From Actinomycetota bacterium (GTDB taxonomy: Bacteria > Actinomycetota > Acidimicrobiia > Acidimicrobiales > WLNW01), in NCBI GenBank assembly GCA_009699605.1, contig WLNW01000006.1, forward strand, positions 1-47,209: a stretch of DNA of 47,209 nt, given 5' to 3'. Positions 10,754-25,436 of this stretch are shown one piece after another. Each line of letters opens with the position of its first letter. Position 1 is the first letter of the stretch. The position numbers and the translations under genes were made by a program. The notes below the pieces were generated by a model. The model saw nothing but the letters and a program-made list of their open reading frames with translations. It had not been told where the DNA came from and ran no database searches.

Positions 10754-11527
10754 TCAGGACTGGCTGGCGAGCTTTCGGTTCTTGACCTTCGCCTTGATGT
10801 AGTCGCGGTTCAGGTACGCGATGAAGTCGAGGCTGATCTCCTTGGGGCACGCGTCATGGCACTCGCCATGGTTGGTGCAAGAGCCGAAGTACTCCTCCAT
10901 GGTCTCGACCATGGCCTCGGTGCGCTTCCAGCGTTCGGCCTGGCCTTGGGGCAACAGGTTGAGGTGCTGCACCTTGGCCGCGGTGAACAGCTGACCGGCC
11001 GAGTTGGGACACGCGGCCACGCACGCGCCGCACCCGATGCAGGCTGCGGCGTCCATGGCCGCGTCGGCCACGGACTTCGGCACCGGCGTGATGTTGGCCT
11101 CGGGTGCCGCACCGGTGTTCACCGAGATGAAGCCGCCGGCCTCGATGATGCGGTCGAGCGCGCTGCGGTCGACCGCAAGGTCGCGGATGACCGGGAAGGC
11201 CCGGGCCCGGAACGGTTCGATGGTGATGTGGTCACCATCGCTGAACTTGCGCATGTGGAGCTGACACGTCGCGGTGCCCTTCTCCTTGCCGTGTGGCATG
11301 CCGTTGATGGTGAGGGAGCAGGTGCCGCAGATGCCTTCGCGGCAATCGCTCTCGAAGGTGATCGGTTCTTTGTTCTCGCCGATGAGTCGCTCGTTCACGA
11401 CATCGAGCATCTCGAGGAACGATGCGTCGTCGGCGATGCCGCGGGCTTCGTAGGTCTCGAAGCGACCCTGCGCGTCGGGGCCGTCCTGTCGCCAGACCTT
11501 GAGCGTGAGGTTGAGGTGCTTAGACAT
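10754..11527 (-). CDS. sdhB: Succinate dehydrogenase / fumarate reductase iron-sulfur subunit
   Basis: The electron-transfer subunit between SdhA flavin and membrane heme/quinone. The 257-residue protein binds [2Fe-2S] through CREGICGTC plus a later Cys (TATCQLH), [4Fe-4S] through [12 protein letters not shown], and [3Fe-4S] through [12 protein letters not shown]. An AGAGG precedes the ATG by 8 nt. It is the third gene of sdhC-sdhA-sdhB, 11 nt after sdhA. The sequence resembles the SdhB that partners type B (single, diheme) membrane anchors. Confidence 0.95.
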
Positions 11528-11538
11528 GATCGAAACCT

Positions 11539-13458
<1,920 letters not shown>

Positions 13459-13459
13459 G

Positions 13460-14293
13460 TCAGTGCCCCGCTTCCTTCTCGGTTGAAGCGCCTTCGGTTC
13501 CGCTGCACACCTTGAGGTGGCCTTCCTGGGCGGCTGCGCGCGGCTTGCAGTTGTTTTCGTTGAAGAACCCGGTCATGGCGGCGATGGGGAAGCTCAAGTT
13601 CCCGATGAGGATGACCGTTGCGAAGCCGCCGGCGAGGTTGCGTCGCACCTTGTTGATGGACGGGCTGTTGATCCCGAGGCTCTGGAACATCGAGTAGACG
13701 CCGTGGAAGATGTGGATGGACAGCGCCACGTTGGCCACGATGTAGATGATCGCGACGGGGATGGTGCTCAAGCTCTCGGTGAGGTTGTGGTAAACGTCGC
13801 CCCGGACGTACGTGTCGCCGAGGAACACGCCCCAGGTGAGGTCCATGATGTGGAACACCAGGTACAGGGCGATGATGGTTCCGGTCCAGCGCATCGAGCG
13901 GCTGGCGAAGTTCGCGGCGGCGTAGTTACGCGGGCTTTGGTACTTGCTGTTCGACAACATGTTCATGCGGGTGAGCGTGACGGCCGAGTGGATGTGCAAG
14001 GCGAACGCGCCCATGAGGCCGAGGCGCATGATCCACAGGACGAACGTCCGGGGGGCGAGATGGCCGCCGAGTTCACGGAGCGCCTCACCGTAGGCGTTCA
14101 CCTGGTTCGGCCCCTCGTACATGTGGAGGTTGCCGATCATGTGCACGAGGACGAACCCGAGCAGCGCGGCGCCCGTGAGCGCCATCACCCACTTCTTGCC
14201 GATCGCCGTCTGGTAGATGCTCAGCGGGAAGGGGAGCGGGCGCGCCTTCTGATGAATGGGATCGACCCGACCGGGCCGCAAAGTCTGGGACAT
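13460..14293 (-). CDS. sdhC: Succinate dehydrogenase cytochrome b subunit (type B, diheme anchor)
   Basis: A 277-residue membrane anchor with five hydrophobic helices (roughly residues 33-55, 80-105, 128-150, 170-195 and 218-240). His residues sit in [35 protein letters not shown] and [12 protein letters not shown], consistent with four ligands for two b hemes in type B succinate:quinone oxidoreductases. A polar, Cys-containing tail follows the last helix. The start is an ATG 9 nt after GGAGG; the in-frame extension to 14350 is not SdhC-like. First gene of the sdhCAB operon. Confidence 0.9.
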
Positions 14294-14407
14294 AGGGCAG
14301 GATCCTCCGAAGCGTGCACTAGCACCCTGGCGAGGCGAGCCGCATGGCATCGGCCGTCAGGCGCTTAGCGATGGCGAAGTTACCCGGGGAACCGCCGACA
14401 CGACGAA

Positions 14408-16525
14408 CTAAGCGGGTCGGTGATGCCGAAGACCGATGACGCTGCGGTAGCGGTTGGTCACGAGGAGGTCGTCAACTGCGAGCTCGAGCTCGAGGGTGAC
14501 CGGCCCGACGGTGCTCGGCACGATCCACTCGATCTGCCCGATCCGGGTGCAGTCGTCGGCTGCGATGTCACCCGTCCACTCCCATCTGCGCGGACCGAGG
14601 GGGGTATCGATCCGAGCCCGGACGACCCCGGCGGGGCGCCCCGAGCGCTCGTCGCTCACCACGTGCACCTCGAGCACGATCTCGTCGCCCGGTTTGAGGA
14701 GCGGGGGGAGAAGGTCGGCGACGACGATCACCGGCCGGCACGCGGCGACGAACGCGTGCCACGCGAGCTTGGCGCCACCCGTGGCGTCGAGCAGGCCGAA
14801 GCCGATCTGCGGCGTGACGTCCTGCCAGCGGTACGCACAGAAGCCGCCCGTGGGCTTGTACTTGAGGCGGCGCAGCGTCTCGATGGTTCGGGCCACCACC
14901 TCGGCCTGGTGGACCTGGGTTGCGTCGCGCCACGCGTCGTAGCTCGCGTAGGAATCGGGGGGCACGACCCGCACCATGGTGTCGACGTCGAGGCCGTGGT
15001 GTTGGGCCAGGTAGGCCCAATCGAGGTTCGGCCAGAACTCGTCCGCGACGAAGGGCCGCGTGTCGGGCGCGGCCTGAGCGCCGAACGCCGACACGAACCG
15101 CACATGCCGGGGGATGCGTCGCGCGAAGCGTGCGAGGTCGGCCGCTTGCCCGTGATACCAGCCGAACCAGAGATGGGCATCGGTGCCGTCGAGTTGCGGG
15201 AGGTGCGGGGCGACGCCCGAATGGGCGATGACCGGTCGTGACTGGTCGTTCCGCTGGAGCACCCGTTTCAGTGAGCGATCGAGGACGGTGCGGTTCCACG
15301 TCGGGAGCTGCTGACGAAGGAATCCGGGACTGACCGCGGCGTCGCGGGGCTCTTCGGCGAGGTAGGGCTCATCGTGCGCGCACCAGAGGAACACGGACGG
15401 GTGATGGCCGAGCAGGTCGACCGCCTCGCGGGCTTGGCGCGCCGCCTGGGTGCGCACACCGCGCGAGTAGCGGTGCACGAGCGGGAGGTCCTGCCAGACG
15501 AGCAGGCCCAGCTCGTCGGCGATGTCGTAGAAGTCGGGGCGGGTGATGTGGGCGTGCACGCGCACGAGGTCGAGTCCGGCGTCGCGAATGGCCCGCAACG
15601 TGCTCACAATCTCCTCGCGTGGCACGTGGGCCAGATCTGTGCGTAACGGCGAGAGGGCGACCCCCTTGAGGAAGAGGAGCTCGCCGTTCACGCTCGCGCG
15701 CCAGTTCCGTAGCTCGACGGTGCGGAAGCCGGTGCGCCAGCGGCGATGGTCGCTCATCTCGCCGTTGTCGAGCCGGACCTCGACGCGCACGTCGTGCAGC
15801 GCCTGGGTACCGAGCGCGTGCGGCCACCATCGTTCGACCAGCGGCACGTTGACCGACCACTCGATCTGGTTCTCGCCGGTGGCGAGTGACACGGCGTGCT
15901 CGTGCTCGATGCCCGCCACGAGGGTGTGCAGCGTGACGGTGCGAGCCTCGACGGTGTCGACCACGAGGCGCATGGCCAACGCGCCGCGCTCCTCGTTGGC
16001 GTCGGCGCAGATCACCCGCCCGTGACGGATCGCTACGGGGCCGGTCTCGACGATCCGTACCGGTTGCCAGATGCCTGCGGGGTTCCAGCTGCGGGGGAGG
16101 TGGTCGCCGTCCTGGAATGCCCCGGTGAGCGAGCGCTTCTCGCCCGGGTCATTGACGGGCGGGCAGCTGACCTCGACCGCGAGCACGTGGGCCGTGTGCT
16201 CGTGGAGCTGGTCGGTTATCTCGAAGCTGTGGGTGAAGAAGTAGCCGTCGGTGTCGCCGATGTAGGAACCGTCGAGCCAGACATCGCCCTGGGCGAACAC
16301 GCCGTCGAGTTCGATCCATGCTCGTGATTCCGGAGCCGGTGCCGGGTGCTCGAAGCGGTGGCGGTAGAGGAGCGGCCCGTCGGTGCTCGCGAACTCGGCG
16401 GTAGTCCGCCAATGTCCCGGTATGTCGATCGCCGGCCAACCGGTGTCGTCGAACTCGTTCAGGTGAAACACGCGCCGGAGGTCCTCGTCGGCGAGTTGAG
16501 CCCTCCAGAGGCCGGACAGATCCAC
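14408..16525 (-). CDS. Glycoside hydrolase family 2-like protein, catalytic nucleophile apparently missing
   Basis: A 705-residue protein with the GH2 layout: N-terminal jelly-roll sugar-binding domain (LSGLWRAQL, then WIELDGVFAQGDVWLDGSYI), an Ig-like domain (~170-285), a TIM barrel (GVALSPLRTD to ~610) and a C-terminal beta domain. The acid/base Glu is kept in FLWCAHDEP (E386), though the usual N before it is D. The nucleophile motif of related beta-mannosidases (FVSEFGxQS) reads FVSAFGAQA, with Ala480 (codon 15086-15088) at the nucleophile position. If so, it cannot be a normal retaining glycosidase. No signal peptide is seen. Start: GTG 16525, 7 nt after TACCCT and right before the first conserved strand; ATGs at 16594 and 16552 are alternatives. 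Confidence 0.8.
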   Translation of the reverse strand: MDLSGLWRAQLADEDLRRVFHLNEFDDTGWPAIDIPGHWRTTAEFASTDGPLLYRHRFEHPAPAPESRAWIELDGVFAQGDVWLDGSYIGDTDGYFFTHSFEITDQLHEHTAHVLAVEVSCPPVNDPGEKRSLTGAFQDGDHLPRSWNPAGIWQPVRIVETGPVAIRHGRVICADANEERGALAMRLVVDTVEARTVTLHTLVAGIEHEHAVSLATGENQIEWSVNVPLVERWWPHALGTQALHDVRVEVRLDNGEMSDHRRWRTGFRTVELRNWRASVNGELLFLKGVALSPLRTDLAHVPREEIVSTLRAIRDAGLDLVRVHAHITRPDFYDIADELGLLVWQDLPLVHRYSRGVRTQAARQAREAVDLLGHHPSVFLWCAHDEPYLAEEPRDAAVSPGFLRQQLPTWNRTVLDRSLKRVLQRNDQSRPVIAHSGVAPHLPQLDGTDAHLWFGWYHGQAADLARFARRIPRHVRFVSAFGAQAAPDTRPFVADEFWPNLDWAYLAQHHGLDVDTMVRVVPPDSYASYDAWRDATQVHQAEVVARTIETLRRLKYKPTGGFCAYRWQDVTPQIGFGLLDATGGAKLAWHAFVAACRPVIVVADLLPPLLKPGDEIVLEVHVVSDERSGRPAGVVRARIDTPLGPRRWEWTGDIAADDCTRIGQIEWIVPSTVGPVTLELELAVDDLLVTNRYRSVIGLRHHRPA

Positions 16526-16532
16526 CGACGTG

Positions 16533-16538
16533 AGGGTA
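16533..16538 (-). promoter_or_regulatory. -10 element for leaderless GH2-like gene
   Basis: TACCCT on the minus strand ends 7 nt before GTG 16525. It supports that start over the upstream ATGs. No clear -35. Confidence 0.4.
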
Positions 16539-16717
16539 GTCGGCGCCCGCATGAGCCCTGCGTACCCCGCAGAACGGGCTGTTCGGTCCGTCAAGTCGAC
16601 GAACGGCGTTCATCGTCCGACGCCATTGCCCCCACGACCTCGACGACTTCATGTCGTTTCTGCTCGAAGGCCGGCAGGTACCCGCGGCGCTGATCCTGGT
16701 CGAGGCACGCGCGGCAC

Positions 16718-16729: not shown

Positions 16730-18139
16730 ATGACGAACCATCCGAGCACCCTCGGCGCGCTACGCGCCTCTGGTTGGCAGTCCCGTCCGGTCAAGGCCGA
16801 GCTGCGGCGCAACGCCATCGAGCGCATCCGCGCCGGCGAGCCGCTGTTCCCCACGGTGCTCGGGTACGAGCACACCGTGCTCCCGCAGCTCGAGAACGCG
16901 CTGCTCGCGGGACACGACGTCATCTTCCTCGGCGAGCGCGGGCAGGCCAAGACCCGCATGATCCGATCGCTCACCTCGTTACTCGACGAGTGGATGCCGA
17001 TCGTCGCCGGTTCGGAGATCAACGACGATCCGTACGCCCCGATCTCGCGGCACGCTCGAGACCTCATCGCGGCCGAGGGCGACGACACGCCCATCGATTG
17101 GGTGCACCGCGAGAACCGCTACGGCGAGAAGCTGGCCACCCCCGACACGTCGATCGCCGACCTCATCGGCGAGGTCGACCCCATCAAGATCGCCGAAGGC
17201 CGTTACCTCTCCGATGAGCTGGTGCTGCACTACGGCCTCGTGCCGCGCACCAACCGCGGCATCTTCGCCATCAACGAGTTGCCGGATCTCGCGGAACGCA
17301 TCCAGGTGGGTCTGCTCAACGTGCTCGAAGAACGCGATGTGCAGATCCGCGGCTTCAAGGTGCGGCTGCCGCTCGATGTGATGCTCTTCGCGTCGGCGAA
17401 CCCTGAGGACTACACCAATCGTGGGCGCATCATCACGCCATTGAAGGACCGCTTCGGCGCCCAGATCCGAACGCACTACCCGCTCGATGCCGCCACCGAA
17501 CTCACCATCGTCGAGCAAGAGGTCGAGCTACCCGACGACATCGCGGTCAGCGTGCCCGAGTTCATGGGCGAGATCATCGCGACGTTCAGCCAACTCGCCC
17601 GGGCCAGCTCGCACGTGAACCAACGCTCGGGCGTGTCAGTGCGCTTGTCGGTGGCCAACTACGAGACGCTCGTTGCCAACGCCATGCGCCGTTCGCTCCG
17701 CACCAACGAGCGACTCGTCGTGCCGCGCGTCTCCGACCTCGATGCGCTCGCGTCGTCCACCACGGGCAAGATCGAGTTCGAGACCCTCGGCGACGGCCGC
17801 GAAAGCGAGATCCTCGAACACCTGGTGCGCGCCGCAGTGCTCACCGTATTCAAGGACTCCGTGCCGCCGATCACCCATCGCGCGGTGATCGAAGCGTTCG
17901 ACAACGGGGTCAGCGCCAGTGCCGGAGAGGACATCTCCTCGGCCGACTACCTCGCCTTGCTGAAGTCGATGCCCGCGCTCGATGCCCCCGTGCAGGCGTT
18001 GCTCGCCGATGAGCCCGACGCCGAGGCGCCCGAGGTGGTGGCCAGCGCTATCGAGTTCGTGCTCGAGGGCCTGCACCTCTCGAAGCGGCTCAACAAGGAC
18101 GCGGCCGGCGGCCGCGCCCAGTACCGCTCCCGCGGCTGA
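16730..18139 (+). CDS. MoxR/BchI-like AAA+ ATPase (magnesium chelatase subunit I-type)
   Basis: A 469-residue AAA+ protein. Walker A is GERGQAKTR (residues 68-76); the Walker B/sensor region is GIFAINELPDL (~178-188), followed by LLNVLEERDVQIRG and FASANPEDYTNRGRI, all typical of the BchI/MoxR helix-2-insert clade. A C-terminal lid and a helical tail end in AGGRAQYRSRG. There are no chlorophyll or cobalamin genes nearby, so a remodelling or maturation role with a VWA partner is more likely than Mg chelation. The likely partner is the VWA protein at 23409. From memory, mycobacterial Rv0958 (~459 aa) and Rv0959 (~672 aa) next to purN-purH look like the same pair. Confidence 0.88.
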   Translation: MTNHPSTLGALRASGWQSRPVKAELRRNAIERIRAGEPLFPTVLGYEHTVLPQLENALLAGHDVIFLGERGQAKTRMIRSLTSLLDEWMPIVAGSEINDDPYAPISRHARDLIAAEGDDTPIDWVHRENRYGEKLATPDTSIADLIGEVDPIKIAEGRYLSDELVLHYGLVPRTNRGIFAINELPDLAERIQVGLLNVLEERDVQIRGFKVRLPLDVMLFASANPEDYTNRGRIITPLKDRFGAQIRTHYPLDAATELTIVEQEVELPDDIAVSVPEFMGEIIATFSQLARASSHVNQRSGVSVRLSVANYETLVANAMRRSLRTNERLVVPRVSDLDALASSTTGKIEFETLGDGRESEILEHLVRAAVLTVFKDSVPPITHRAVIEAFDNGVSASAGEDISSADYLALLKSMPALDAPVQALLADEPDAEAPEVVASAIEFVLEGLHLSKRLNKDAAGGRAQYRSRG

Positions 18140-18325: not shown

Positions 18326-19531
18326 TCATGTCGTGAGGAGTGCCTGCAGGTAGTGGCCGCTGGCCTTGATCTTGCGGTCGCGATCGATGAGCCCCCGTGG
18401 CGCGTTGAAGCCGTACAGCCACTCGTAGGCATCGATGCCGGTGTCGTACAGGTAACCCGTGAGCGGAACTCCATCGGCGATCGCCCGCTGCATCTCGATC
18501 ACGGTCGACCGCAGCAGCTCTTCGCGCCACTCGTCGTCGGTGGTGGTCACCCCATCGGCGGCAATCATGAGTGGCGTGGCGGGGGCCAGCTCACCCAGGC
18601 GGCGCACGACCTCGCCAAGCTCCTCGGCGTTCGGGGCGAAGCCGGTTGCGTCGGTGCGCGCGGTGGCCGGGTACGGGCCGAGTTGGAGATCTTCGCCGAG
18701 TAACAATGGCGGGCGGTATGCGACACCGATGATGTCGAACGCGCCGGCCATCTCGGGACGGTCAAGCGACGCGCCACCCGGAACGTCGAGAACGCCTTCG
18801 CGGCGCGAGCGCAGGAAAAGGTCCCACATGACCGAATCCCAATGCTTGGCCTCGTTGCGCGCCTCGAGGGAGTTCACGGCGCGGACGGTGGAGAGGCCCA
18901 GCACCACCATCACCGGCGCTTCGCCGCCCTGGAGCAGTTTCCACGCCGCTTGGTTCGCCTCGATCGCGCCGACGATCGCCTCGCGGGCTTGGTCGGGTCG
19001 GCGGCGACCAGGGGGGCGCGTGCCCATCAGGTACCCGCGGGTGGCCCACCCGATCGGGTCTTCGATCGGCACCCACCCGGCGACGAGATCCTCGAACCAC
19101 TCGGCGCACCGGTCGACGTGGCGCGGCCAGAAGTACCCGCGTGCCTTGGCGTCGCGGAAGCCGCCCTCGTCGTCGTGGAACCAGCCGGGAAGCGAACCGT
19201 TGTGCAACGTGATCCACGGCGCGAGGCCGGCGGCGCGGATGTCGCGGAGCACCTGCCGTTCGTGGGCGACGCGATCCGTGTCGATGATGCCGTCGCGGAT
19301 CTCGAGGCGCGCCCACTCGATCGTGACGCGCACCGCGTTGGTGCCGAGCGTGGCGAGCAACGCCGCGTCGTCCGCGTAGTTGGTCGCCCAGCCATTTCCG
19401 TCGGCCGAGCGCGGGGCGTCGTTGTCGCGCTCCCAGGCCGACCAGTCGGCATTGGGCGCAACGCCTTCCGAACCAACGGACGACGACGTGGTTCCCCAGA
19501 CGAACGTGTCGGGGAACCCCGCGGCGCTCAC
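18326..19531 (-). CDS. Glycoside hydrolase family 1-like protein lacking both catalytic glutamates
   Basis: A 401-residue protein with GH1 TIM-barrel landmarks: FVWGTTSSSVGSEG at the N-terminus, AVRVTIEWARLE, TLHNGSLPGWF, GYLMGTRPPG, and a C-terminal GYLYDTGIDAYEW aligned with the usual GYfxWSLxDNFEW. The acid/base motif (xNEP) reads PIEDP (E157-D158). The nucleophile motif ITENG reads IAADG, so Ala325 (codon 18557-18559) replaces the nucleophile. The HW pair before LP is also NG. The fold is therefore kept and the active site lost. GTG start overlaps the MaoC stop (GTGA), so it belongs to the acyl-CoA operon. A lipid- or glycan-binding role is only a guess. Confidence 0.8.
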   Translation of the reverse strand: MSAAGFPDTFVWGTTSSSVGSEGVAPNADWSAWERDNDAPRSADGNGWATNYADDAALLATLGTNAVRVTIEWARLEIRDGIIDTDRVAHERQVLRDIRAAGLAPWITLHNGSLPGWFHDDEGGFRDAKARGYFWPRHVDRCAEWFEDLVAGWVPIEDPIGWATRGYLMGTRPPGRRRPDQAREAIVGAIEANQAAWKLLQGGEAPVMVVLGLSTVRAVNSLEARNEAKHWDSVMWDLFLRSRREGVLDVPGGASLDRPEMAGAFDIIGVAYRPPLLLGEDLQLGPYPATARTDATGFAPNAEELGEVVRRLGELAPATPLMIAADGVTTTDDEWREELLRSTVIEMQRAIADGVPLTGYLYDTGIDAYEWLYGFNAPRGLIDRDRKIKASGHYLQALLTT

Positions 19532-20394
19532 GCGAACGTCATCGTGCCGGCATCGAACACCAGGCGATCAGCGACGAATGTCTGGAACGTGGCGGTGTTG
19601 TCGTTCTCGATCCAGATCTTCACCTCGAGCGCCTCGCCCGGGATGACCGGCGAGGCGAACCGACCCGCCATGCCGACAAAGCGCGTCGGATCGCTGCCGC
19701 ACACCGCGTGCAGCAACGCTCGGCCGGTGAATCCGTAGGTGCACAGGCCGTGCAGGATCGGGGTGTCGAAGCCGCCGAGCGCAGCGAACTGCGGATCACT
19801 GTGCAACGGGTTGCGATCGCCGTTCAGCCGGTACACCAGGGCTTGATCGGTGCGGGTCTGGTAGGACACGACGTGATCGGGGGCGCGCTCGGGGGCGACG
19901 AACTTGGCCGATGGGCCGCGATCGCCACCCCAACCACCTTCGCCGCGGATGAACATCGATGACGACGTCGTGAACAGCTTCTCGCCGGTGTTGATGTCAG
20001 TGGCCGTGGATTCCATGACCACGACTGCGGCCTTGCCCTTGTCGTAGATCGCGGTGATGCGCGACGACGCCGATGCGGCGCCGGTGACGGTGAGCGGCTT
20101 GTGCAGCGTGAACGACTGCTCGCCGTGGACCAGCATGGCCGGGTTGAACGAGCCGAGCGCCGCCAACGGGCCGGCGCCTTTCATCTCGCTGCGCAGGGAC
20201 AGCACCACCACCATCGAGGGCAGGGCCTGCTGCTCGACTCCGTGCGAGTTCTCGGTCGTGAACTCGAGCTCGAAGCCGGTCGGGTCGGTCATGCCCGCAC
20301 CGACGCCCAACGCGTAGAGGATGCTCGAGGTGGAATCCCAACTGAAGGTGGAGGGGCTGCCTTCGGCGCCTACGGCGTCAGGGTTGATTGGCAT
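19528..20394 (-). CDS. MaoC-like (R)-specific enoyl-CoA hydratase (hydratase 2, double hot-dog)
   Basis: A 288-residue protein with an N-terminal pseudo hot-dog half and a C-terminal half bearing the hydratase-2 motif YRLNGDRNPLHSDPQFA, where the Asp and His are the catalytic pair, followed by GFDTPILHGLCTYGF. This is the layout of MFE-2-type hydratases acting on long-chain or steroid side-chain enoyl-CoA esters. GAGGA lies 6 nt before the ATG. It sits 60 nt after the fused acyl-CoA dehydrogenase and would hydrate that enzyme's product. Its stop overlaps the GH1-like start by 4 nt. Confidence 0.92.
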   Translation of the reverse strand: MPINPDAVGAEGSPSTFSWDSTSSILYALGVGAGMTDPTGFELEFTTENSHGVEQQALPSMVVVLSLRSEMKGAGPLAALGSFNPAMLVHGEQSFTLHKPLTVTGAASASSRITAIYDKGKAAVVVMESTATDINTGEKLFTTSSSMFIRGEGGWGGDRGPSAKFVAPERAPDHVVSYQTRTDQALVYRLNGDRNPLHSDPQFAALGGFDTPILHGLCTYGFTGRALLHAVCGSDPTRFVGMAGRFASPVIPGEALEVKIWIENDNTATFQTFVADRLVFDAGTMTFA

Positions 20395-20454: not shown

Positions 20455-22596
20455 TCACGCGAGCATGGGTTCGCGTGGCAGGCCGAGCAGCCGCTCGGCG
20501 ATCACGTTGCGCAGCACCTGTGACGTTCCGCCGGCGATCGAGAGTGCTCGGCTGAACAGGTAGCTGTTCGTCCACATCGCGAGATGATCGTCGTCGAACA
20601 CGGCGTCGGGACCGGCGATGCGCATCGCCAGGTCGGTCACCCGCTTGTCGTGTTCGCTCCCGAGGAGCTTGCCGACGTTGCCCTCTGCTCCGGGCTCGGC
20701 GCCTTCGAGTGCCTTGCCCACCCGGCGCAGACCGAGCAGGTCCATCGCCTGGTGATGCGCAACGAGTGCGCCGATCTCCTGGCGCACCGAGACATCGCCG
20801 GGGCAGTGGCGCGCCGCGAGGGCGAACAACCCGCGCGCGCTGGTCGCGAAGGCTGCGGTGCCCGCGCCGGACAACGACACGCGCTCGTTGGCGAGCGTGG
20901 TCCGCGCGGCCGACCAGCCGTGGTCGAGCTCGCCGATGAGCGCGTCATCCGGTAGGAAGACGTCGTTGAAGAACACCTCGTTGAACGTCGGGTGACCGGT
21001 GAGCTCGCGCAGCGGTCGAACATCGAGCCCGGGCGCCGACATGTCGACCACGAAGCAACTGATGCCTTGGTGCTTCGGTGCGTTCGGGTTGGTGCGCGCC
21101 ACGCACAAGCCGACGTTGGCGAGGTGCGCGATCGACGTCCACACCTTCTGACCGTTGAGCCGCCATCCGCCGGGAACCTTCTCGGCGCGCGTCGTGAGCG
21201 ACGCGAGGTCGCTGCCCGCATCGGGCTCGCTGAACAGCTGGCACCACATGAACTCGCCGCGCAGTGATCCGCCGACCCACTTCTCCTGTTGTTCGGGCGT
21301 GCCATACGCGATGATGGTGGGGAGGTTCCACGACGCGAGGCCCATGTTTGGCTTACGTACTTTGCCGCGCAGCTCCTGTTCCACGACGAGTTGCTCGACC
21401 GGGCCCGCGCCGCGACCCCACGGTTCGGGCCAGTGGGGGAACAGGTAGCCGCTGTTGGCCAACGCGTCCGGCTTGTCGTCGGACGCCAGCGCGGCATACC
21501 GCTCGACGAAAGCCCGCACCTGCGCGCGGAACGCGTCGGCAGCGGCACCGAGGTCGACCTCGGCGCCGCGAACGACCCCGCGCTCCGCGAGCTCGGCCGT
21601 GGCCGCGCGGTGGGTATTGATCGTGCCGAACGTGGCCGTGAGCGCTGTGGCGCGCCGGAACCACAGGTGTGCGTCGTGCTCGTAGGTGCAGCCGATGCCA
21701 CCGTGCACCTGGATGTTCGTCTTCGCGCAGTTCTCGTAGGCCTCGAGCGCCACCGACCCGGCGACCGCACACGCAAACGCGGCCTGTTCGTCGATGCGGA
21801 TGTCGGCGGCGGCATCGAGCGCGCGCACCGCGTCCCACGCGACGGCCGTGGCCAGCTCGGCTGAGGCCAGTGCATCGGCCAAGAGGTGCTTGACCGCCTG
21901 GAAGGATCCGATCACCCGACCGAACTGCACCCGCTGCTTCGCATACGCGGTGGCGAGCTCGACGCAGGCCCGCGAGCCGCCGGCGGCTTCGGCCGCGCCG
22001 AGGGCGACACCGACGCGTTCGACGATGGCGGCGGCACCCTCGAGTCGTATGGCCGACGCAAGGGCGGCCGGGTCAAGTCCAACGTGCGCGCTGCGTCGCG
22101 TGCGGTCGATGTTGCCGCGCTCGGTGATCGTCACCCCTGGCGCACCGGTCGTGACGACGAGCGCGTCGTTCCCGTCGATCAGGACGAGCGTGTGCGCGTG
22201 CGTCGCGCCCAGGACGGCCCCGCCGACCCGGCCCACGCCGCCTATGCGCGAGCCGTCGGCGAAGCCGGGCAGCAGCGCAGCACGCGTGGCGTCGTCGCCG
22301 GCCTGCGCGATTACGTACGACGCAAGCACGGTGGGCAAGAACGGACCGGGCAATAGCGCGGCACCTGTGGCCTCGAGCACCACGGCGAACTCGGCCAGCC
22401 CGTAACCCGAACCGCCGTACTCCTCGGGCAGGTGAAGCCCGAGCCATCCGAGTGCCGCCATGTCGGTCCACAGCGGCGTGCCGTCGGTGTCCGCGTCGCG
22501 CGTGGCCCGAGCGAGCCCGAGCGCGTCGCGGCGTATGCAGAAGTCGGTGGCCACCGCGGCCAGCGCGCGATGATCCTCGGTGATGGCGATCGCCAT
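20455..22596 (-). CDS. Fused two-module acyl-CoA dehydrogenase (FadE34-like)
   Basis: A 713-residue protein made of two tandem acyl-CoA dehydrogenase modules. Module 1 (~1-340) has LGLHLPEEYGGSGYG, QRVQFGRVIGSFQAVKH and VHGGIGCTYEHDAHL. Module 2 (~365-713) has QLFSEPDAGSDLA (FAD/substrate loop), GWRLNGQKVWTS, and the C-terminal SIAGGTSQVLRN. In mycobacteria most steroid side-chain dehydrogenases are heteromers of two such chains, whereas FadE34 is a natural fusion of this size; this gene has the same build. The likely role is alpha,beta-dehydrogenation of a branched or steroid side-chain acyl-CoA. AGGGGAAA precedes ATG 22596; a further ATG at 22632 is less supported. First gene of the dehydrogenase-hydratase-GH1-like operon. 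Confidence 0.9.
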   Translation of the reverse strand: MAIAITEDHRALAAVATDFCIRRDALGLARATRDADTDGTPLWTDMAALGWLGLHLPEEYGGSGYGLAEFAVVLEATGAALLPGPFLPTVLASYVIAQAGDDATRAALLPGFADGSRIGGVGRVGGAVLGATHAHTLVLIDGNDALVVTTGAPGVTITERGNIDRTRRSAHVGLDPAALASAIRLEGAAAIVERVGVALGAAEAAGGSRACVELATAYAKQRVQFGRVIGSFQAVKHLLADALASAELATAVAWDAVRALDAAADIRIDEQAAFACAVAGSVALEAYENCAKTNIQVHGGIGCTYEHDAHLWFRRATALTATFGTINTHRAATAELAERGVVRGAEVDLGAAADAFRAQVRAFVERYAALASDDKPDALANSGYLFPHWPEPWGRGAGPVEQLVVEQELRGKVRKPNMGLASWNLPTIIAYGTPEQQEKWVGGSLRGEFMWCQLFSEPDAGSDLASLTTRAEKVPGGWRLNGQKVWTSIAHLANVGLCVARTNPNAPKHQGISCFVVDMSAPGLDVRPLRELTGHPTFNEVFFNDVFLPDDALIGELDHGWSAARTTLANERVSLSGAGTAAFATSARGLFALAARHCPGDVSVRQEIGALVAHHQAMDLLGLRRVGKALEGAEPGAEGNVGKLLGSEHDKRVTDLAMRIAGPDAVFDDDHLAMWTNSYLFSRALSIAGGTSQVLRNVIAERLLGLPREPMLA

Positions 22597-22711
22597 GGCA
22601 GTTTCCCCTGGAAGTCGTCGGGCACTCGACATGTTGCGTTGGTCCGCCGACGGTACCCTCTCGCCCGGTACTCGTCAGCAGACGGCGTGTCCGAACACGG
22701 CAGGGGAGCGC

Positions 22712-23402: not shown

Positions 23403-23408
23403 TTGGCC

Positions 23409-25436
23409 ATGAGACTGCGTCGTCGCGAGGTCCCCGATCCGTTGCGGTTCCGGTATTCGCGCTGGGACGGCCAGCAGCAGGGGTTCGAGCTCACCCCCGA
23501 CGACATCCTCAGTCAGCTCACCGACGATCTGCTGTACCACGGCGATGTCAATGCAGCCCTGCGGCGCATGATGCAGAGCGGGTTCGACGACCGCAACGGC
23601 GAGCGCATCCAAGGCCTGCGCGAGATCCTCGAGAAGCTCCGGAAGGAACGCAAGGAGCGGCTGGAGAACCACGATCTCGGCGGCGTCTACGACGAGATCG
23701 CTCAGGAGTTGCGCGACGTGCTCGACCGCGAGCGCGACGCCCTCGACCAGTACCAGCGCGACGCTGAGCAATCGGGCGATCAGCGGCGCGAAGAGATCGC
23801 GCAGAGCGTCTCCCAAGAGCGCAACCTCGAGCTCGACATGTTGCCCAACGACCTCGCGGGGCAGGTGCGTGGCCTGCAGAACTACGAGTTCGTGTCGCCC
23901 GAGGCGCGCCAGCAGTTCGAGGACCTCATGGATCGGTTGCGCCAGCAGCTGATGCAGCAGTCGCTCGACCAGATGACCGACGCCATGCAGAACATGTCGC
24001 CCCAGGACATGCAGCGCATGAAGGACATGCTCGCCGAGCTCAACAACATGTTGCAGCAACGCCAACAGGGGCAGGAGCCGGACTTCGCAGGCTTCATGGA
24101 GCGCTACGGCGACTTCTTCCCCGAGAACCCCGAGACGCTCGACGAGCTCCTCGAAGTCATGGCGCAGCGCATGGCGGCCATGCAGCAGATGCTGAACTCG
24201 ATGACTCCCGAGCAGCGCTCGCAGCTCCAGCAGCTGAACGAGACGCTCATGGAGGACATGGATCTGCGCTGGCAGATGGATCAGCTCGGCGACAACCTGC
24301 GCCAGATGTTCCCGCAGATGGGCTGGGAGCGCAGCCAGAACTTCCAGGGCGGCCAGCCGCTCGGCTTCTCCGAGGCCATGGAGATGATGCAAGAGCTCGG
24401 CGACCTCGATCAGCTCGAGCAGATGTTGCGCGGCACGTCCAATCCGGGCGCCCTCGCCGAGGTCGACACCGATCGGGTGCGCGAGCTCTTGGGCGACGAC
24501 ACCGCGCGGTCGCTCGAACGTATGAGCGAAGTGGCCCGCCAGCTCGAAGAGGCCGGTCTCATCGAGAACAAGGAAGGCCGCTACGAGCTCACCCCGCGGG
24601 CGGTGCGCAAGATCGGCCAGAACGCGTTGGGCGACATTTTCAAGCGGCTGTCGAAGGATCGCGTCGGGCGCCACGCGATCGAACGCACCGGCATCGGCCA
24701 CGAACGCGACTACGACACCAAGCCCTACGAGTTCGGTGATCCGTTCAACCTCAACATCGAACGCACCGTCCGCAACGCGATCACCCGGGCCGGCTCCGGT
24801 ACCCCGGTCCGCCTCACGCCCGAGGACTTCGAGGTCGAACGCACAGAGCACCTCGTGCGCTCGTCCACGGTGCTCATGCTCGACCTGTCGCTGTCGATGC
24901 CCATGCGCGACAACTTCCTCCCGGCGAAGAAGGTGGCGATGGCGCTGCACTCGCTCATCTCGAGTCAGTACCCGCGCGACTACCTCGGCATCGTCACCTT
25001 CAGCGAGGTGGCACGCGAGATCAAGCCCGAGCGCCTACCCGAGGTGTCCTGGGACTACGTGTACGGCACCAACATGCAGCACGGGTTCATGCTGGCGCGC
25101 GCCATGCTCGCGAAGCAGTCGGGCACCAAGCAGATAATCATGATCACTGATGGTGAGCCCACCGCCCACATCGATGCGCAGGGTCACCCGCACTTCTCGT
25201 ACCCGCCGACGCACGAGACGGTCGACCTCACGCTGCGCGAAGTCATGCGGTGTACGCGAGATGGCATTCGCATCAACACCTTCATGCTCGATGCCACGAG
25301 CTACCTCACCACGTTCATCGAGAAGATCTCCAAGATGAACGGCGGGCGCGCGTTCTTTACCACGAACGAGACCCTCGGCGACTACGTGCTCGTCGACTTC
25401 GTCGAGCAACGGCGCAAGCTGTTGAAGGGCGCCTGA
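23409..25436 (+). CDS. VWA-domain protein, probable partner of the AAA+ ATPase
   Basis: A 675-residue protein. Residues ~40-300 are highly charged, helical and very rich in Met and Gln (for example MTDAMQNMSPQDMQRMKDM), suggesting a coiled-coil scaffold. Residues ~480-675 form a von Willebrand A domain with an intact MIDAS: DLSLS (D492), a Thr in GTNMQHG and D in MITDGEP. Such VWA proteins work with MoxR/BchI ATPases, as BchD works with BchI. The start is ATG 23409, immediately after a TAGCCT; a TTG two codons upstream is less likely. The matching ATPase is 5.3 kb upstream, separated by an operon on the opposite strand. Confidence 0.88.
   Translation: MRLRRREVPDPLRFRYSRWDGQQQGFELTPDDILSQLTDDLLYHGDVNAALRRMMQSGFDDRNGERIQGLREILEKLRKERKERLENHDLGGVYDEIAQELRDVLDRERDALDQYQRDAEQSGDQRREEIAQSVSQERNLELDMLPNDLAGQVRGLQNYEFVSPEARQQFEDLMDRLRQQLMQQSLDQMTDAMQNMSPQDMQRMKDMLAELNNMLQQRQQGQEPDFAGFMERYGDFFPENPETLDELLEVMAQRMAAMQQMLNSMTPEQRSQLQQLNETLMEDMDLRWQMDQLGDNLRQMFPQMGWERSQNFQGGQPLGFSEAMEMMQELGDLDQLEQMLRGTSNPGALAEVDTDRVRELLGDDTARSLERMSEVARQLEEAGLIENKEGRYELTPRAVRKIGQNALGDIFKRLSKDRVGRHAIERTGIGHERDYDTKPYEFGDPFNLNIERTVRNAITRAGSGTPVRLTPEDFEVERTEHLVRSSTVLMLDLSLSMPMRDNFLPAKKVAMALHSLISSQYPRDYLGIVTFSEVAREIKPERLPEVSWDYVYGTNMQHGFMLARAMLAKQSGTKQIIMITDGEPTAHIDAQGHPHFSYPPTHETVDLTLREVMRCTRDGIRINTFMLDATSYLTTFIEKISKMNGGRAFFTTNETLGDYVLVDFVEQRRKLLKGA

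Follow-up and report, generated by a model that had tools for sequence, protein, structure and literature searches.

The gene at 18326-19531 and its neighbours

The window analysed here, a 47,209-nt stretch (positions 1 to 47,209) of contig WLNW01000006.1 of an Actinomycetota bacterium, contains a gene for a 401-aa protein with GH1 homology (positions 18326-19531). Its open reading frame runs from a GTG start at 19531 to a stop at 18326, with zero internal stops. The protein matches the Pfam GH1 family (PF00232) with 92.8 bits against a cut-off of 22.6 (E = 2.1e-26), and its best PDB match by sequence is the beta-glycosidase 1vff (E = 4e-35), bearing out the GH1 fold proposed in a preliminary description of this DNA. 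In contrast, its score of 106.8 bits against TIGR03356, the GH1 beta-glucosidase equivalog, is far below the curated cut-off of 478.5. It is the sole GH1 match in the window genome, and a signal or membrane segment is not evident in this single-domain bacterial protein. The surrounding genes are as follows.

10754-14350, minus strand: sdhC, sdhA and sdhB, the end of the conserved block (similarity between loci and reading)
14408-16594, minus strand: GH2-like protein with the nucleophile lost (SAFG for SEFG) and HDEP for HNEP (alignment across loci)
16730-18139, plus strand: MoxR/chelatase-type AAA ATPase, convergent with the GH1 gene, conserved neighbour (Walker A GERGQAKT)
18326-19531, minus strand: putative GH1-fold pseudoenzyme, 401 aa (PF00232, PDB 1vff, orthologues)
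19528-20394, minus strand: MaoC-type hydratase with a 4-nt overlap with the GH1 gene, motif GDRNPLH intact (profile match and reading)
20455-22632, minus strand: two-domain acyl-CoA dehydrogenase (FadE34-like), a neighbour in the window genome only (profile match)
23403-25436, plus strand: 677-aa VWA protein with MIDAS DLSLS, conserved neighbour (locus comparison)

The overlap of the GH1 and MaoC genes reads GTGA, and the two-domain acyl-CoA dehydrogenase lies upstream of MaoC, both as previously described. The GH1 gene is on the opposite strand from the AAA and VWA genes, so it does not share an operon with either. In the AAA ATPase, Walker A is normal and Walker B reads FAINE, with Asn for the Asp of the usual DE.

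Catalytic and glycone-site residues

In GH1 motifs, NEP holds the acid/base Glu and TENG holds the nucleophile Glu. The corresponding positions and two further features of the window protein are listed here, all on the minus strand.

19055-19063: E157-D158-P159 for NEP, D158 replacing the acid/base Glu (alignment; conserved as Asp in the clade described below)
19007-19039: RGYLMGTRPPG, residues 165-175, with R165 invariant in the lost clade and not in intact orthologues
18551-18562: A324-A325-D326-G327 for TENG, A325 replacing the nucleophile Glu (alignment)
18443-18445: D363 for the glycone-stacking Trp (alignment; usually Asp in the same clade)

An AlphaFold model of the protein built from 4 sequences was poor (pLDDT 47, pTM 0.51) and residues could not be placed in it; with this low-confidence model, the best 50 Foldseek matches were all GH1. 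The active-site comparison therefore rests on alignment to intact orthologues, in place of structural superposition. Orthologues at the same locus align ungapped with the window protein, EDP to NEP and AADG to the nucleophile motif, which confirms the earlier reading that both catalytic Glu are lost and rules out chance or register error as the source of these motifs. It had been allowed that homologues might show the GH1 alignment to be wrong, and they did not. The GYLMGTRPPG landmark reported earlier is present, and a Glu-Trp pair (E370, W371) is kept as well.

In an insect GH1 enzyme, the glycone site consists of Q39, H142, N186, W444, E451 and W452, and the catalytic pair of E187 and E399 (PMC5148593). 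The window protein has G20, N111, E157, D363, E370 and W371 at the glycone positions, and D158 and A325 at the catalytic ones. Of the six glycone-site residues only E370 and W371 are kept; Gln, His, Asn and Trp have been replaced. The loss of two Glu noted earlier was thus correct but incomplete, as the glycone Gln, His and Trp (G20, N111, D363) are lost too. Intact orthologues at the same locus keep the set essentially whole, as QHNEPYEWEW, where one position may be Tyr or Phe. Compared to GH1 beta-glycosidases (1vff; SGR_2426, PMC12369401), the window protein shares whole-length homology and fold class, and has same-locus orthologues with the full catalytic set, but itself has neither the acid/base and nucleophile Glu nor most of the glycone-binding residues of an active glycosidase. 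Because the single changes E187D, Q39A and E451A in the insect enzyme already bring kcat/Km down to 4e-4 to 1e-5 (PMC5148593), the combined residue loss should abolish hydrolysis. Judged from its residues, the window protein has very likely lost glycosidase activity.

Locus conservation, loss and retention

We searched for GH1 relatives over the class, the order, three genera and the phylum and fetched the flanks of 120 matches, making 121 rows with the window; three genera were sampled deeply, so locus counts are not event counts. The whole-phylum search gave five matches with E <= 1e-30 outside the named close group, at only ~30-33% identity. In 93/121 rows, all of them Acidimicrobiia loci, the GH1 gene adjoins an AAA and/or VWA gene, which places it at a MoxR/VWA locus, with the usual order VWA(<) GH1(>) AAA(<) GH2-like(>) sdhC sdhA sdhB. 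Some AAA/VWA loci lack GH1: in at least five Acidimicrobiia loci (L220, L235, L246, L247, L248) VWA is directly beside AAA. The context common to intact and lost GH1 copies is the VWA/AAA pair, the GH2-like gene and sdhCAB, not an acyl-CoA operon; the preliminary description does not mention this context.

Among the 93 loci, 24 keep both catalytic Glu, along with essentially the whole glycone site, and 69 have lost one or both (both gone in 59, acid/base only kept in 9, nucleophile only kept in 1). The apparent pseudoenzyme described earlier thus extends well beyond a single gene. The 28 rows without AAA or VWA in view comprise 27 intact copies and 1 lost copy on a short contig. In two genomes, G473 and G539 (L150/L151 and L155/L156), the GH1 at the VWA/AAA locus is a lost form and a second GH1, located elsewhere, is intact (QHNETYEWEW). 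One group of intact paralogues outside the locus (L069, L070, L073, L074, L151, L156, L174, L175, L176) has NET, not NEP. A further lost lineage (L076, L079, L180, L182, L203, L205) reads xRP or TRT, with Arg in place of the acid/base Glu.

To follow the history of loss, we used a tree built from the adjacent AAA and VWA proteins. On it the intact/lost state requires at least six changes, or about eight losses if loss is irreversible, and the window GH1 falls within a 41-locus all-lost clade with support 96 (SH-aLRT, quick method) that spans eight families (f1, f7, f13, f15, f65, f70, f71, f85). When the key pocket columns are left out, a tree of GH1 itself again unites these loci, now joined by L162, with support 99; there the lost forms cluster together with 2 changes, possibly through long branches. 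The preliminary description had proposed checking whether EDP and AADG are conserved in homologues. Asp replaces the acid/base Glu in all clade members (41/41), and a Gly, Ala or Ser stands in for the nucleophile in 40/41. The stacking-Trp position (363) is Asp in 36/41 and an acidic residue in 38/41. Every member of the clade carries D121, G161, R165 and W231, none of them invariant in intact orthologues, and by alignment the former active-site loops contain most of the strongly conserved switches. At the sugar-binding His, Gln and Glu positions there is free variation within the clade.

The GH1 gene has been long retained under purifying selection without its catalytic residues. Among close pairs, dN/dS is 0.06-0.33 for lost copies and 0.05-0.15 for intact copies by a simple counting method, with saturated dS in some pairs, and GH1 values are somewhat above those of AAA and VWA. 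Internal stops among the matches listed occur in one short fragment only (G091, two stops). The open frames and dN/dS disfavour a pseudogene. Few broken frames, low dN/dS, the clade invariants and the lost copies beside intact paralogues in G473 and G539 together support a retained function. Since related species keep the gene whole, under selection and at the same chromosomal place, the protein has probably taken up a role other than sugar cleavage.

One or both catalytic Glu of the GH2-like neighbour are missing in 25/33 scorable lost-GH1 loci versus 3/16 intact-GH1 loci; by independent pairs this co-loss did not reach significance (of 5 pairs, 1-2 were concordant and none opposite). Four loci with a lost GH1 (L150, L152, L155, L158) keep GH2 intact, so the two genes need not decay in step. 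The GH2-like copy is intact (HNEP / SEFG) in several relatives, which makes the copy in the window a second apparent pseudo-glycosidase at this locus.

Possible roles of the retained protein

The preliminary description had presented the GH1 homologue as coupled to an acyl-CoA operon and proposed looking for the fadE-maoC linkage in homologues. The maoC half of this holds in part: in 26 loci (families f1, f7, f13, f71), all with a lost GH1, a MaoC gene in the same orientation sits directly upstream of GH1. The GH1 start falls between ~-19 and +41 nt relative to the end of MaoC, and the hydratase motif GDRNPLH is kept in 26/26. FadE as a conserved partner was rejected, as it is adjacent to GH1 in the window only. 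No MaoC accompanies 43 lost loci and all 24 intact loci. As just 2 changes on the AAA and VWA tree account for the MaoC linkage, with no independent-pair support, it amounts to roughly one broad lineage and not to repeated evidence. Co-expression of MaoC with GH1 in that lineage is real, but it cannot explain the general retention of lost GH1.

We consider that the GH1 homologue is most plausibly a pseudoenzyme whose retained role is non-catalytic and probably one of binding, although the exact role is suggested by position only. The window lineage gave up the catalytic machinery long ago but retained the protein, whose former pocket has been remodelled: the acid/base position holds Asp, the stacking Trp has usually given way to Asp, and an Arg and a Trp are newly invariant. 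The clade-specific conserved charged residues suggest a ligand or protein interface, and the former active-site face may thus hold a ligand or a partner protein.

The same residues could instead mark a pocket rebuilt as a new enzyme, in which the acid/base-position Asp and the last-strand Asp catalyse another reaction, whether or not its substrate is related to the old one. D158 in every member of the clade, the acid at 363, invariant R165 and W231, switches in former active-site loops and purifying selection on lost copies would all fit. The small residue at the nucleophile position and the free variation of the His, Gln and Glu positions, unlike a working glycosidase, make this unlikely. Along similar lines, one ancient clade may have rebuilt its pocket around the acid/base Asp and the Asp replacing the stacking Trp to give a new non-glycosidase enzyme or a ligand sensor tied to the MoxR/VWA and succinate dehydrogenase locus, which we regard as rather unlikely. 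Membership of acyl-CoA metabolism, as a MaoC partner or a scaffold co-translated with the hydratase, would account for the 4-nt overlap and for the close spacing of MaoC, its hydratase motif kept, to lost copies and never to intact ones. The lost copies without MaoC imply a role that predates or does not need it, and with the linkage going back to so few changes and FadE not conserved, we judge this quite improbable. Decay under relaxed selection after a substrate disappeared, together with the GH2-like neighbour, would match the frequent GH2-like losses beside lost GH1, the loci without GH1 and the broken G091 fragment. It is very improbable given frames that stay full-length across 8 families, a dN/dS well under 1, clade-specific invariants and a GH1/GH2 association that is not significant by independent pairs.

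For the favoured binding role, the partner might be the MoxR/VWA chaperone pair, acting on the adjacent succinate dehydrogenase by analogy with RavA-ViaA, with co-production of MaoC in the MaoC sub-lineage; this identification is a guess, and a doubtful one. At RavA-ViaA and NorQ-NorD loci, an AAA ATPase and a VWA protein likewise share a locus, and the pair in the window adjoins sdhCAB (PMC10585395, PMC9976466). RavA-ViaA acts on and modulates fumarate reductase (PMC10585395), RavA is bound by the enzyme LdcI (PMC10585395, PMC9976466), and RavA-ViaA interacts with complex I (PMC3893208). In contrast to the present loci, a GH1-like protein is not reported with RavA-ViaA or NorQ-NorD in the literature searched, and the link here is drawn from gene position. 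The conserved neighbours invite such a chaperone link and do not prove it. Because at least five loci have AAA and VWA without GH1, GH1 is not an obligatory partner of the pair.

In the literature searched, of partial coverage, we found neither an account of a bacterial pseudo-GH1 nor a description of the GH1 pseudoenzyme in the window. GH1-derived pseudoenzymes are known in animals, where the Klotho co-receptors use GH1-like domains, devoid of the catalytic Glu, for binding (PMC5715364). Klotho proteins differ in being animal membrane proteins with two GH1-like repeats, and the single-domain bacterial protein is not a Klotho member. With active and dead orthologues at one conserved locus, repeated losses and a GH2-like neighbour that also loses catalytic Glu beside the GH1 loss, these bacteria would permit a before-and-after comparison of why a fold is kept without catalysis.
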